Below are positions 15,691 through 61,245 of a stretch of 64,000 nt of DNA, piece after piece. The notes below the pieces were generated by a model. It had not been told where the DNA came from, did not search any database, and saw nothing but the letters and a program-made list of their open reading frames with translations. The first letter of the stretch is position 1. Every line of letters starts with the position of its first letter. The stretch is from NCBI RefSeq assembly GCF_001636345.1, contig NZ_KV440945.1, positions 3,941,854 through 4,005,853 on the forward strand, in the 5' to 3' direction. The stretch is from Cytobacillus gottheilii (GTDB lineage: Bacteria > Bacillota > Bacilli > Bacillales > Cytobacillaceae). The translations under genes and the position numbers were made by a program.

Positions 15691-15925
15691 AAATAGACGG
15701 AGAAATTACGTTTATTTAGAGAAATACCTACATTTCCCCCAAAATAGGCGGAGTATTTCCGACTATATGCACATATTCAATGAATTTTGCTCTAAATAGA
15801 GGAGTTAACCGGAATTCCTCCCTTTATTTTTGCTTATTTTGCCCTGTTATAACGAATAGCCGGAAATTCTCCCTTTATTTTTGCTTATTTTTCCCTGTTA
15901 TACCAAATAGCCGGAATTTCTCCTC
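15691..15925. repeat. Degenerate tandem array, unit about 51 bp, five units
   Basis: AAATAG (or GAATAG) followed by a CGGA/GGAG-containing block recurs at 15691, 15742, 15794, 15854 and 15905, giving spacings of 51, 52, 60 and 51. The last units share CCGGAATT-type starts and the stretch CCCTTTATTTTTGCTTATTTT. It lies between converging genes, beyond the MFS terminator. It is not coding: the unit length is generally not a multiple of three and stops occur in all frames. Confidence 0.8.
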
Positions 15926-28746: not shown

Positions 28747-29001
28747 TTTTTTCACATCCGCTTTTCTTCTTTTATGTTGAGTATTAAAGCTCTGATCCTT
28801 AGTAAACTAATAAAGATAAATTAGTCTGAGTTAATCGTATATTACAAAATTATTATATGTTCTAACTTTTTAGAATGCAATAATAACTTAGAACGAAAAT
28901 TCGACAGATGTAACTCACTCATTAAAAAATGGTTCTTTTTTGAGCGAGTATGGTTCTTATCTGGTTTTTTCTTGCTCTTCATTTGAAGGAACCAGTGGAA
29001 T

Positions 29002-29185
29002 AAGCGGAGATTTTACCCTTATTAATAGAATTGAGCTATTTTGGGGCGAAATAAGAGGAGAAATTCCGGTTATATAGAATAAAATCGCTTTTTTTCTTGA
29101 TTTTTGGTTAGTTAGACGGAATTCTTCCGTTTATTTAAGCCTATTTTAAGTGATTTTACGATTTAAGCGGAATTCTTCCGCCTAT
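29002..29185. repeat. Degenerate tandem array, CGGA-type blocks at 51/61/51-bp spacing
   Basis: The 28747-29405 gap holds four related blocks: GCGGAGATTTTACCC, AGGAGAAATTCCGG, ACGGAATTCTTCCG and GCGGAATTCTTCCG, with aligned positions 29005, 29056, 29117 and 29168. The last three are short dyads in themselves. Blocks resemble those at 15691-15925. No reading frame is supported; the rest of the gap is the regulator leader and the katE terminator. Confidence 0.75.
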
Positions 29186-29337
29186 TTATGAAAATTTAAA
29201 TTTTTGATTTGGCAAGAAAACTTGAAACGAAAGAGTGCAAGACTCCTGCTTAGACTCAGCACATCAGCCCAGCCGGAAAGCGAATTTTAAAGTGGCATTA
29301 CTTACATATTTCATTAATAAACTCAGAAACAGCAAAA

Positions 29338-41423: not shown

Positions 41424-41596
41424 GGCTTTCACCTCATATGTATTTAATATCCTTATTAGTATGGATGAGGGAATTTACTTTATACCAACATCTGCTATCA
41501 TTTTCCTTCTAAAAGATAAGGCTGGGACAAAAAAACAAATACATATCTCTAAAATACGAATATTCATTATCTTGGTTTGGGTTTTTAAACAAGTCC

Positions 41597-41726
41597 GTTC
41601 CACCTGCGCTGCGGACCCTCGCTTTCCGAGGGGAGGAAGGAGAGCCTCCTCGGCGCGCCTGCGGGGTCTCACCTTTTCCTCTATTTCCCTCCGGAGCCTG
41701 AGGGTCCTCCGCTCCATTTCACTCAT
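41597..41726. repeat. Dispersed GC-rich intergenic repeat
   Basis: The stretch from GTTCCACCTGCGCTGCGG to CGGAGGACCCTCAGG (read on either strand) is markedly GC-rich against the surroundings and contains GAGACCCCGCAGG, a string typical of a repeat found between genes in many Bacillus genomes as I recall. On the minus strand GAGACCCCGC...CCTCGGAAAGCGAGG and similar runs form strong hairpins. It lies in the 41424-41837 gap, upstream of the coat pair. No frame is supported. Confidence 0.75.
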
Positions 41727-41759
41727 ATTAGTAAGATAAATTCTAAAATAAATAAAAAT

Positions 41760-41796
41760 CCGGATGATTAGAAATAGTCACTTCCTAATCACCCGG
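41760..41796 (-). terminator. Terminator of the two-component operon
   Basis: On the minus strand CCGGGTGATTAG pairs with CTAATCATCCGG around a 13-base loop, then ATTTTTATTT. Confidence 0.88.
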
Positions 41797-41837
41797 TTCT
41801 ATGACAATGGTAAATTTATATGTCCCAGCCACCACTA

Positions 41838-43941: not shown

Positions 43942-44119
43942 TGCTCATCCCCCGCAAAACATTGTACTAGTTTGTGTATATGATACCCCTTCTTTTTTAC
44001 CTTCGTCTACCTGAGTTTACCCTTTGATCATGTCAGCAGGATGTCAGGCATGATAGTTTCATTTCTTTTCATCTTTTGATAGCATAAAATTATCCAGAAA
44101 ATGAAGGAGAGTGGAAGGT

Positions 44120-45052
44120 TTGACGAATAAAGTTCAGATTGGCAAAACTGGTTTATATGTAAATCCAATTGGCCTTGGTACAAATGCTGTTGGCGGCCAT
44201 AACCTGTATCCAAATTTAAATGAAGATACTGGGAAAGAATTAGTCCGCACTGCTTTGAAAAATGATATTAATTTCTTGGATACTGCTTATATCTATGGAC
44301 CAGAGCGTTCTGAAGAATTGATTGGGGAAGTTTTAAAAGAAACTGGACTTCGTTCCGAAACCATTATTGCTACAAAAGGCGCACATAAATTTGTAGGAGA
44401 AAACACGGTTTTTGATAACTCTCCAGCTTTTTTAAAGCAGTCTGTAGAAGATAGTTTGAAACGCCTGCAAACAGATTATATTGACCTCTACTATATTCAT
44501 TTTCCTGATGAAAGCACGCCAAAGGAAGAAGCTGTCGGCATGCTGAAGGACTTGAAGGATCAAGGTAAAATTAAAGCAATTGGGGTTTCTAATTTTTCCA
44601 TGGATCAGTTAAAGGAAGCTAACAAATACGGTTATGTAGATGTGTATCAAGGTGAGTATAGTTTATTGGCTCGAGACGCAGAGAAAGAGCTGCTTCCATA
44701 TGCTTTAGAGCACAATATTTCATTTGTTCCTTACTTCCCGCTGGCATCCGGCTTGCTCGCAGGTAAATATACAAAGGATACAGCCTTTAACGACTTGCGT
44801 GCAAACTCTCCACATTTCCAGCCAGGAGTTTTTGAGCATAATTTAGAAAAAGTTGAAGAATTAAAGAAAATCGCAGCGGGGAAAGATGTGGAAGTGGCCC
44901 ATCTTGTTCTGGCATGGTACCTTGCACAGCCGGCAATTGATGTTCTTATTCCTGGAGCTAAGAGAGCTGAACAGGCAATAGACAATTTAAAAACATTAGA
45001 AGTCTCTTTAACAGCAGAAGAAATCAAGAACATCAGCAGCATTTTTAACTAA
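44120..45052 (+). CDS. Aldo/keto reductase
   Basis: 310 residues from the TTG at 44120 (AAGGAGAG eight bases away); a GTG three codons upstream is too close. Catalytic tetrad residues are visible in [18 protein letters not shown] (Asp, Tyr), IATKGAHKF (Lys) and DLYYIHFPD (His). The AKR cofactor-binding end includes [18 protein letters not shown]-dependent carbonyl reduction is expected; substrate unknown. A terminator follows directly and then the 52-bp array. Confidence 0.9.
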
Positions 45053-45067
45053 ATAAAAATCTCCATG

Positions 45068-45111
45068 AAAAATGCCTGAAACCCTCTAAGTATGGGTTTT
45101 AGGCATTTTTT
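45068..45111 (+). terminator. Terminator of the aldo/keto reductase gene
   Basis: AAAAATGCCTGAAACCC pairs with GGGTTTTAGGCATTTTT around TCTAAGTAT (G-U pair tolerated), then T. Confidence 0.85.
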
Positions 45112-45138
45112 GAGTGATTCCCTCGACTTAGTCTCCAA

Positions 45139-45710
45139 GCGGATTTCGGGAGGTACTTTCTCTTTGTAATTCCCGAAACTTTGTCTCCTAGCGGATTTCG
45201 GGAATTACTTTCCCTTTGCATTTCTCGAAACTTTGTCTCCTAGCGGATTTCGGGAGGTATTTTCCCTTTGCATTTCCCGAAACTTTGTCTCCTAGCGGAT
45301 TTCGGGAATTATTTTCCCTTTGCATTTCCCGAAACTTTGTCTCCTAGCGGATTTCGGGAGGTACTTTCCCTTTGCATTTCCCGAAACTTTATCTCCAAGC
45401 GGATTTCGGGAATTACTTTCCCTTTGCATTTCCCGAAACTTTATCTCCAAGCGGATTTCGGGAATTACTTTCCCTTTGTAATTCCCGAAACTTTGTCTCC
45501 TAGCGGATTTCGGGAATCACTTTCCCTTTGTAATTCCTGAAACTTTGTCTCCTAGCGGATTTCGGGAATCACTTTCCCTTTGTAATTCCCGAAACTTTGT
45601 CTCCTAGCGGATTTCGAGAATCACTTTCCCTTTGCATTTCCCGAAACTTTGTCTCCTAGCGGATTTCGGGAATCACTTTCCCTTTGCATTTCCCGAAACT
45701 ACTTCGGCAT
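45139..45710. repeat. Tandem array of a 52-bp unit, eleven copies
   Basis: GCGGATTTC occurs at 45139, 45191, 45243, 45295, 45347, 45399, 45451, 45503, 45555, 45607 and 45659, an exact 52-bp period, followed by one degenerate copy ending near 45710. Each unit contains TTTCGGGA and its reverse complement TCCCGAAA, so half-sites alternate orientation about every 26 bp. Units 1, 3 and 5 carry GGGAGGTA, units 2, 4, 6 and 7 GGGAATTA, and 8 to 11 GAATCA, indicating stepwise duplication, including of a 104-bp double unit. It lies between converging genes. Confidence 0.97.
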
Positions 45711-45747
45711 CCCGATTTCAGACATCAGTTTCCCTCTTTCTTACACA

Positions 45748-46119
45748 TTATATAGATTGCTTTACATAAATAGCTTGAGTCTTTTTAACAGTTTTACAGT
45801 CTTGCAAATCTTCGTTTGTTAAAAGTCCCAGCTCAATCGCTGATTTTATTTTAGCTTCGTCCGGGCTTTTTACAATGAGATTATTCAAATTAAGGCCTTC
45901 TAACTTTTCTACGGTCGATTCCTGCTCATATTTTTCAGCCGTTCTTATTTGCCGCTGCAGTTTGAAATCATGTACAACAAGCTCACCCTTTTGTCCTTCT
46001 CCGACTGTATGATCAAAATAACTGTTAAAGGAAGTCTTCAAATCAGCCAGCTCGTCATCCAGCTCTTTTTTCCGCTTGATTAGCTCTGTATAACGGACAA
46101 GCATTTCTCTCGTTATCAT
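45748..46119 (-). CDS. Hypothetical protein with coiled-coil N-terminus
   Basis: 123 residues from the ATG at 46119, which follows GGAGGAGAACA; a longer frame upstream lacks this. The first ~40 residues (RYTELIKRKKELDDELADLKTSFNSYF) look like a coiled coil; the rest is mixed alpha/beta with repeated LNLNNLIVKSPDEAKIKSAIE. No family recognised. It is the first gene beyond the 52-bp array and reads away from it. A phage or cell-wall role cannot be suggested from sequence. Confidence 0.62.
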   Translation of the reverse strand: MITREMLVRYTELIKRKKELDDELADLKTSFNSYFDHTVGEGQKGELVVHDFKLQRQIRTAEKYEQESTVEKLEGLNLNNLIVKSPDEAKIKSAIELGLLTNEDLQDCKTVKKTQAIYVKQSI

Positions 46120-46225
46120 TGTTCTCCTCCATTTCAAAAAAGAATACTACATTGTATTTTTGAAATGGAGACTATATTCATCATGTTATGAACATAGCAA
46201 AAGTATAAATTTCTACAATAAAAAA

Positions 46226-61033: not shown

Positions 61034-61078
61034 CTCTCCTGACTCGCCATTTTTAGTATGGATCAGGAGAGTTTTTTC
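61034..61078 (+). terminator. Terminator of the sigma/anti-sigma operon
   Basis: CTCTCCTGA and TCAGGAGAG form a perfect 9-bp stem with a 20-base loop, followed by TTTTTTC. Confidence 0.88.
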
Positions 61079-61086
61079 GATTTCTT

Positions 61087-61245
61087 ATCAAGTTGTGGCT
61101 AATTCCTTTCGAATTTTTTGCTTTACTATCAAAATTTACCGTTTTCCTATCAAATTTCTTCGTTTTCCTATCAAAATTTGAGCTTTTCCCATCAAAACTT
61201 TTCAATTTCCCATCAAACTCAAGCTCTTTCCTATTAATTCCCATT
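61087..61245. repeat. 21-bp tandem array with phased A/T tracts
   Basis: ATCAA-type cores occur at 61087, 61128, 61149, 61170, 61191, 61212 and 61233 (ATTA), giving one step of 41 and five of 21. The unit is like CGTTTTCCTATCAAAATTT; T4 and A4T3 tracts alternate about every 10.5 bp. A minus-strand frame through it would encode a heptapeptide repeat starting FDRK/FDGK because 21 is a multiple of three, but it has no ribosome binding site. It lies in the 60963-61384 gap. Confidence 0.85.

Follow-up and report, generated by a model that had tools for sequence, protein, structure and literature searches.

The 52-bp tandem array studied here, which lies in a 64,000-nt stretch of bacterial DNA (the window), belongs to a published and unexplained class of 52-nt satellites found in Bacillus and its relatives. 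Across the eight arrays of its family (F1) in the window genome, two opposed boxes hold one spacing while the DNA between the boxes has drifted. In a wider set of 34 array records, unit length changes far less than neutral indel rates predict. Many other families of the class carry an A/T phase of 10.4 bp that the window family lacks. We tentatively regard the array, at a little below an even chance, as a putative DNA scaffold, located at the ends of genes, for a protein that bends or wraps DNA.

In 176 Bacillus genomes, repeats of 51–53 nt made up 1886 of the 4029 recorded, more than any other class (Subirana and Messeguer, 2021; PMC8161180); Table 4 of that paper lists none for B. subtilis 168. 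The parts of that paper on which we draw describe constant length, unconserved sequence, and short signatures together with their reverse within the unit; they propose nucleoid proteins or small RNAs for the 52-nt repeats and state that a constant length without shared sequence has no obvious explanation. In these parts helical turns are raised only for the 20–21-nt class, which is related to two turns, and the main text, to the same extent, makes no mention of gottheilii, curvature, bending or gyrase. The same authors' repeat survey of 2019 is PMC6749651. In our literature searches no title or abstract opening dealt with the phasing of 52-nt repeats. What we add to the 2021 paper is the 10.4-bp phase, the box spacing, the indel comparison and the gene context; a 2020 J Bacteriol paper lies outside this comparison. 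Like the satellites of PMC8161180, as far as they are described there, the window array is a constant, non-coding 51–53-nt repeat of the Firmicutes, with a period that is not a multiple of three and at least four copies (52 bp × 11.1). It has a signature and its reverse in one repeat (TTTCGGGA and TCCCGAAA), its genome holds several unrelated families of the same length (F1 and F2), and its length varies between relatives.

Structure and setting of the array

TRF gave the window array (Table 1) 93% matches and 0% indels at period 52, in agreement with the eleven copies of the sequence-only reading. GCGGATTTC occurs in 11/11 units in exact 52-bp register starting at 45139. The motif and reverse complement that had been ascribed to each unit are present in most of them, TTTCGGGA in ten of the eleven (unit 10 carries TTTCGAGA) and TCCCGAAA in nine (units 2 and 8 deviate). 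With at most one mismatch, GATTTCGGGA has 11 matches in the window against 3.57 expected, all 11 inside the array, and this count was reached in 0/100 shuffles. The unit groups 1/3/5, 2/4/6/7 and 8–11, from which duplication of a 104-bp double unit had been suggested, are borne out where the units read GGTA, ATTA or ATCA. Another variable site, with TAA in units 1, 7, 8 and 9 and CAT in the remaining ones, divides the units differently, and the double unit is therefore supported only in part. TRF reported a 104-bp superperiod for other arrays but none for the window array; higher-order repeats of the 52-bp unit, with superperiods of 104, 154–156, 194 and 208 bp, occur in L100, L103, L104, L113 and L118. 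Unit 11 is diverged over its final 10 bp and is followed by a degenerate further unit running to about 45742 (by eye); the orthologous array of C. gottheilii is likewise trailed by a degenerate stretch.

Table 1. Coordinates of the window array, its boxes and its neighbours
Feature	Position in window	Strand	Evidence
Aldo/keto reductase gene, left neighbour, 3′ end toward array	44111..45052	+	PF00248, E 8.8e-80
Terminator-like inverted repeat (AAAAATGCCTGAAACCC..GGGTTTTAGGCATTTTTT), between aldo/keto reductase gene and array	45068..45111	.	by eye
Tandem array (satellite), family F1, 52 bp × 11.1	45126..45700	+	TRF and unit listing
Box A, unit 1 (family type TTTCGGGAATKAC; here TTTCGGGAGGTAC), every 52 bp	45144..45156	+	
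Box B, unit 1 (type ATTCCYGAAA), inverted relative to box A, every 52 bp	45169..45178	+	
Degenerate terminal unit (GATTTCAG..ATCA..TTTCCC), array edge decay	45711..45742	+	by eye
129-aa protein gene, right neighbour, 3′ end toward array	45748..46137	-	95% identical in C. gottheilii

The array lies, as the sequence-only reading had it, between converging genes, and the protein encoded on its right has no Pfam match at E 0.001. Its period is, as also stated there, not a multiple of three; a 90-aa ORF within the array is taken to be incidental. The inverted repeat ahead of the array has a loop of about 9 and was therefore not listed by the terminator scan, whose loop limit was 8. That scan gave 9 terminator-like matches against 1.5 expected, all of them GGGA..TTCCC stems of nine units with poor T tails; the stem is not kept in the other F1 arrays (by eye), and we rejected an array of terminators.

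Several other elements were seen in the window. Positions 61073–61217 hold a 21/42-bp array of the TTTCCTATCAAA type, a second constant-length satellite class, similar arrays occurring at L094 5446–5626 and in the orthologous C. gottheilii stretch. A short array (51 bp × 2.3) occupies 15809–15923 and has no counterpart in the TRF output for the orthologous C. gottheilii stretch. The minus strand at 2194–2260 carries an Rfam Bacillaceae-1 RNA (RF01690, 80 bits). Pieces 41519–41830 (82.5%), which is overlapped by an ORF at 41475–41726, and 28984–29189 (82.0%) match non-orthologous places in the C. gottheilii stretch and are probably interspersed repeats.

Opposed boxes at a fixed spacing in family F1

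The pattern TTCGGGAA-N40..48-TTCGGGAA gave 56 pairs in the window genome (41 forward, 15 reverse) and its reversed control gave 0. The spacer was 44 in 53 of the 56 pairs, which cluster at eight places; these eight arrays, the window array included, constitute family F1. They have diverged to the point that BLAST with the window unit recovers three of the eight places at E 0.001. When the units were aligned gaplessly and anchored on TTTCGGGAA, box B (ATTCCYGAAA) had its best match at offset 25 from the anchor in 8/8 arrays, although its sequence is absent from the pattern used to gather them. A local dyad search made the arm distances seem variable; we relied upon the gapless anchoring with its fixed offset. 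Mean pairwise identity was 0.79 in box B and 0.77 in the four bases after the anchor, and 0.37 and 0.30 in the two spacers. Box A is followed by box B after 25 bp and box B by the next box A after 27 bp, so that the opposed half-sites proposed at intervals of about 26 bp are indeed found, as 9-bp arms centred 26 bp apart. By this geometry the A boxes would share one face of the helix at intervals of five turns, with the inverted B boxes close to the opposite face.

One sequence-specific protein, peculiar to this species group, might read TTTCGGGAA/TTCCCGAAA as an array of operators. The constancy of box B outside the search pattern argues for this, as does box A, which heads arrays in G014, G030, G007 and G027 (where it was the search word). 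We consider such an operator array quite unlikely, since another family of the window genome retains 52 bp without these boxes (by eye), inverted boxes about 26 bp apart are about half a turn out of register, which is unusual for a simple dimer, and no Noc-type site is present. The Noc binding-site motif ATTTCCCGGGAAAT has 3 matches in the window at up to 3 mismatches (4.24 expected), 0 of them in the array.

Sister families in three other genomes (L099–L107; G014, G030 and G007) begin with TTTCGGGAA, the search word, followed mostly by CCAAT or TCAAT, and most have ATTG near offset 21 in the same 52-bp frame. All eight F1 places lie within C1 2.37–4.41 Mb of the window genome (G000), in one half of the chromosome. 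TTTCGGGAA is on the + strand at seven of the eight; the sign of the GC skew changes between 2.31 and 2.65 Mb. With the terminus set at 2.40 Mb, the purine-rich strand is leading in 12 of 15 arrays of this genome, but family F2 has exceptions, and a strict replication polarity was rejected.

One period in unrelated families

A stratified 400-kb sample of the window genome, drawn to avoid search bias, yielded five arrays that had 4 or more copies and a period above 30 bp not divisible by three, and all five had period 52. They belong to another family, F2 (AACACCCC type), whose motif, when up to 3 mismatches are allowed, is found at 13 places in the genome; 11 of these places have more than one match. 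BLAST with the window unit found no F2 place; F1 and F2 were judged unrelated on this result and by eye.

Across the genus, the wider TTCGGGAA pattern (spacer 20–50) has at least one match in 20 of 36 genomes, many of the matches being single and at other spacings, and its reversed control matches 8 genomes (13 matches). Arrays of 52 bp were confirmed by TRF in the window genome, G017, G014, G030, G007 and G027. From 800 kb of ten other genomes we obtained three arrays of period 52 (one of only 2.5 copies) and one of 53. In 400 kb of G003, G019 and G030 there were four of period 52 (one of only 2.5 copies) and a 51-bp array, whose period is a multiple of three and which could be coding. Sampling in other genomes also gave two arrays of longer period, one of 148 bp (2.6 copies) and one of 124 bp (3.1 copies). 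No 52-bp array was present in a random 400 kb (20 stretches) of G014, G030 and G017, though each of these genomes has some elsewhere; 21-bp arrays and some with periods of 102–123 bp were found there.

Constraint on unit length

Among 259 units, 228 were exactly 52 bp, 25 were 51 or 53 bp, and 6 were 50, 54, 57 or 58 bp, the last two lengths both coming from L099, where runs of N occur. The count covers 34 array records, including one overlapping duplicate in L101 and two C. gottheilii orthologues. Relative to their consensus the units carry 1374 substitutions, and 31 units are of other length; the 90 raw indel events scored in units include many compensating pairs within one unit. Non-coding DNA of the window, array excluded, differs from that of C. 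gottheilii by 942 substitutions and 142 gaps (6.6 to 1). At this indel rate about 208 length changes would be expected among the array units, against the 31 units seen, a comparison that contains some ascertainment since the arrays were partly found by patterns permitting spacers of 40–48 or 20–50.

A 10.4-bp phase in the class but not in the window array

The sequence-only reading attached importance to 52 being 5 × 10.4. In a Fourier analysis of unit consensi, where the fifth harmonic of 52 is 10.4 bp, A/T power at k=5 reached z 10.5 in 29 genus consensi (AA/TT/AT z 12.5) and z 7.8 in 17 published consensi (AA/TT/AT z 8.1), each against mononucleotide shuffles; the other harmonics were mostly small, with the exceptions of k=8 (z 5.8, genus set) and k=11 (z 4.0, published set). 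By Fisher values that are too optimistic, relatives recurring in all three sets (in the last L174/L209 and L183/L221, by eye), the component was significant at p<0.05 in 14 of 31 arrays against dinucleotide shuffles (4.7e-13), in 12 of 25 published consensi (7.1e-12) and in 4 of nine arrays gathered after the hypothesis (7.6e-5). The harmonic k=5 had been chosen after viewing k=1–12 in the first two sets, and the nine later arrays, in which k=3, 4, 6 and 7 were not significant, are the only fresh test. The 10.4-bp A/T share averaged 0.122 in the 29 arrays of length 52. In 570 non-coding 52-mers serving as controls it was 0.049, and of 20,000 random control sets of equal size none exceeded 0.102; non-array DNA itself shows a weak trace of the period (0.049 versus 0.041 in its own shuffles).

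The phase is also respected by variation: in 21 non-F1 arrays of length 52 the variants preserve it (z 3.93). In these arrays AA/TT (z 8.5) and GG/CC (z 5.2) are phased and purine/pyrimidine is weaker (z 3.0); because G/T versus A/C is phased as well (z 7.1), the signal is not purely one of A/T. An origin of the signal in sub-repeats was rejected, though a weak trace remains in the letter identity among A/T pairs, which is 0.60, 0.53 and 0.59 at lags 10, 11 and 21 versus 0.51 at control lags; among G/C pairs the corresponding values are 0.50, 0.47 and 0.49 versus 0.50. The 20–21-nt class, analysed at 10.5 bp, gave no common result in four consensi.

By family, the significant arrays were 14 of the 23 outside F1 and 0 of the 8 within it. 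The window array has no 10.4-bp A/T component (rank 9 of 26 harmonics, p 0.58), the A/T share of F1 arrays (0.049) equals that of control DNA, and F1 variants show no phase constraint (z 0.53). The five-turn idea is thus supported for the class, in which A/T is phased in many families, and not for the window array, F1 being without the signal.

Copy number and genomic location

The window genome and Cytobacillus gottheilii Marseille-P3555, in which the 129-aa neighbour has its 95% identical counterpart, share 87.5–94.6% DNA identity over aligned regions. Period and half-sites recur in this relative with other copy numbers, which could be affected by repeats collapsed in its assembly: 5 units versus 11 at the window array, about 4 versus 13 or so at a second orthologous pair, and about two degenerate units (by eye) versus about ten at a third site. 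For six further arrays, with counterparts sought at guessed coordinates, L092 was located, L094 gave its flank only, and L093, L113, L114 and L115 were missed.

By a dicodon gene caller, the 24 distinct array-bearing spacers comprise 14 convergent, 10 codirectional and 0 divergent ones; this count omits the two orthologues from C. gottheilii as well as five array records that lie at the end of a locus. Control spacers of at least 150 bp, from random stretches of G000, G014 and G030, comprise 38 convergent, 154 codirectional and 68 divergent ones (Fisher 4.5e-6 for convergent, 0.0018 for divergent). A cruder caller placed L107 in a divergent spacer, L100 and L113 in convergent ones, and L091, L106 and the first array of L090 in codirectional ones. 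Within the unbiased sample of the window genome only 1/6 (dicodon caller) or 2/6 (cruder caller) of the arrays were convergent, and avoidance of divergent spacers is therefore the safer statement.

These data bear on the possibility that the array is a neutral minisatellite, expanding and contracting by slippage and unequal recombination in tolerant gene 3′ ends, with a period that is inherited and meaningless. Such an origin would fit the changes in copy number and the decayed edge unit, and also the 0/24 divergent spacers given by one caller, which would be expected if promoters were avoided. It sits poorly with a length of 52 bp common to unrelated families, with unit lengths that change less than neutral DNA, with the fixed box spacing of F1 and with the non-F1 variation that respects the phase. 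We hold a neutral origin to be possible but on the unlikely side.

Comparison with RNA elements and known repeats

The arrays might instead be transcribed and act as hairpin arrays, small RNAs or sponges. RNA is one of the two proposals for the class in the parts of PMC8161180 that we use, and transcription of repeats in B. coagulans is reported in the part of PMC8625621 that we use. Many units contain dyads, and one pair in L090, T-A to G-C across boxes A and B, is compensated (by eye). In 33 arrays, compared with dinucleotide shuffles, mean foldability z was -1.07 and -0.88 (two strands), and in 27 published consensi -1.46 and -1.71; the best z fell below -1.64 in about 63% of the latter but in only 27% of the 33 arrays. 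Dyad size and spacing vary between families, and structure in RNA would leave the phasing of A/T to the DNA helix unexplained. The Rfam covariance models gave no hit over the array at gathering score; relaxing the threshold to E 1 brought up Thr_leader alone (E 0.2), at 45039–45113, ahead of the array; identity with an RNA family was accordingly rejected. A role as RNA is in our judgement improbable. We also rejected the hairpin as the cause of the period, as dyads are not universal, their geometry differs between families, and the excess of foldability in the genus arrays is modest.

Among DNA repeats, the 20–21-nt Bacillus satellites are likewise constant in length and differ by corresponding to two turns rather than five and by other sequences. 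The strong gyrase sites and BIME-2 elements of E. coli resemble the 52-nt satellites in being intergenic repeats downstream of genes, and the gyrase sites have a phased 10-bp variation in G/C, according to the parts of PMC6379681 considered here. Many families of the class share such a phase; the window array, as shown above, does not. Unlike BIME-2, the 52-nt satellites have no REP palindrome and do not require RAYT. A REP/BIME-like element spread by a RAYT transposase would agree with the intergenic position at gene 3′ ends, the palindromic parts and the 2 Y1_Tnp-family matches in the window genome; of the 36 genomes, 23 have such a match. Against it, Y1_Tnp matches at E 0.001 are absent from G014 and G030, both of which bear arrays, and the units are 52-bp tandem copies, not scattered 20–40-bp palindromes. 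The RAYT link was rejected on the Y1_Tnp result, and we regard such an element as highly improbable. CRISPR arrays also combine conserved and variable parts, but here the whole 52-bp unit is repeated at 93% and there are no unique spacers; the earlier verdict that this is not CRISPR is upheld.

Proposed mechanism

If the array is a scaffold, it would act as DNA rather than as RNA or protein. In units of five turns, equivalent positions would all fall on the same side of the helix, and a DNA-bending or DNA-wrapping protein could thereby pack side by side over hundreds of base pairs. The constraint would be visible in many families as the A/T versus G/C phase of 10.4 bp and in F1 as the two fixed boxes.

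Candidate binders are DNA gyrase and a dedicated nucleoid protein. Gyrase is named because its E. coli sites have phased G/C and lie downstream of transcribed genes: the gyrase motif shows a phased 10-bp G/C variation, and both BIME-2 elements and the DNA downstream of highly transcribed operons are enriched in gyrase sites (PMC6379681, in the same parts). A preprint (PMC12393610) describes, in the part used here, a 36-bp centre flanked by G/C-periodic arms of 47 bp. Gyrase geometry does not account for the number 52. For the genome-wide 10–11-bp periodicity, the part of PMC7537859 that we cite argues that core motifs do not bend DNA, which calls for caution in reading the 10.4-bp phase as bending.

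A bolder form of the scaffold proposal, which we think rather unlikely as a whole, is a wrapping code, in which sequence-free, helically phased scaffolds of five turns per unit would recruit gyrase or a histone-like protein, in register, to the ends of genes, mainly between convergent ones, and serve as topological sinks or domain boundaries. With selection acting on phase and box geometry alone, the families would then differ in their sequence.

In summary, the A/T phase of 10.4 bp recurs in many families of the class independently of their sequence and points to DNA bending or wrapping, and evidence for it at the level of the class makes the purpose of the 52-nt satellites testable. If the proposal is true, some bacteria would carry nucleosome-like positioning DNA.
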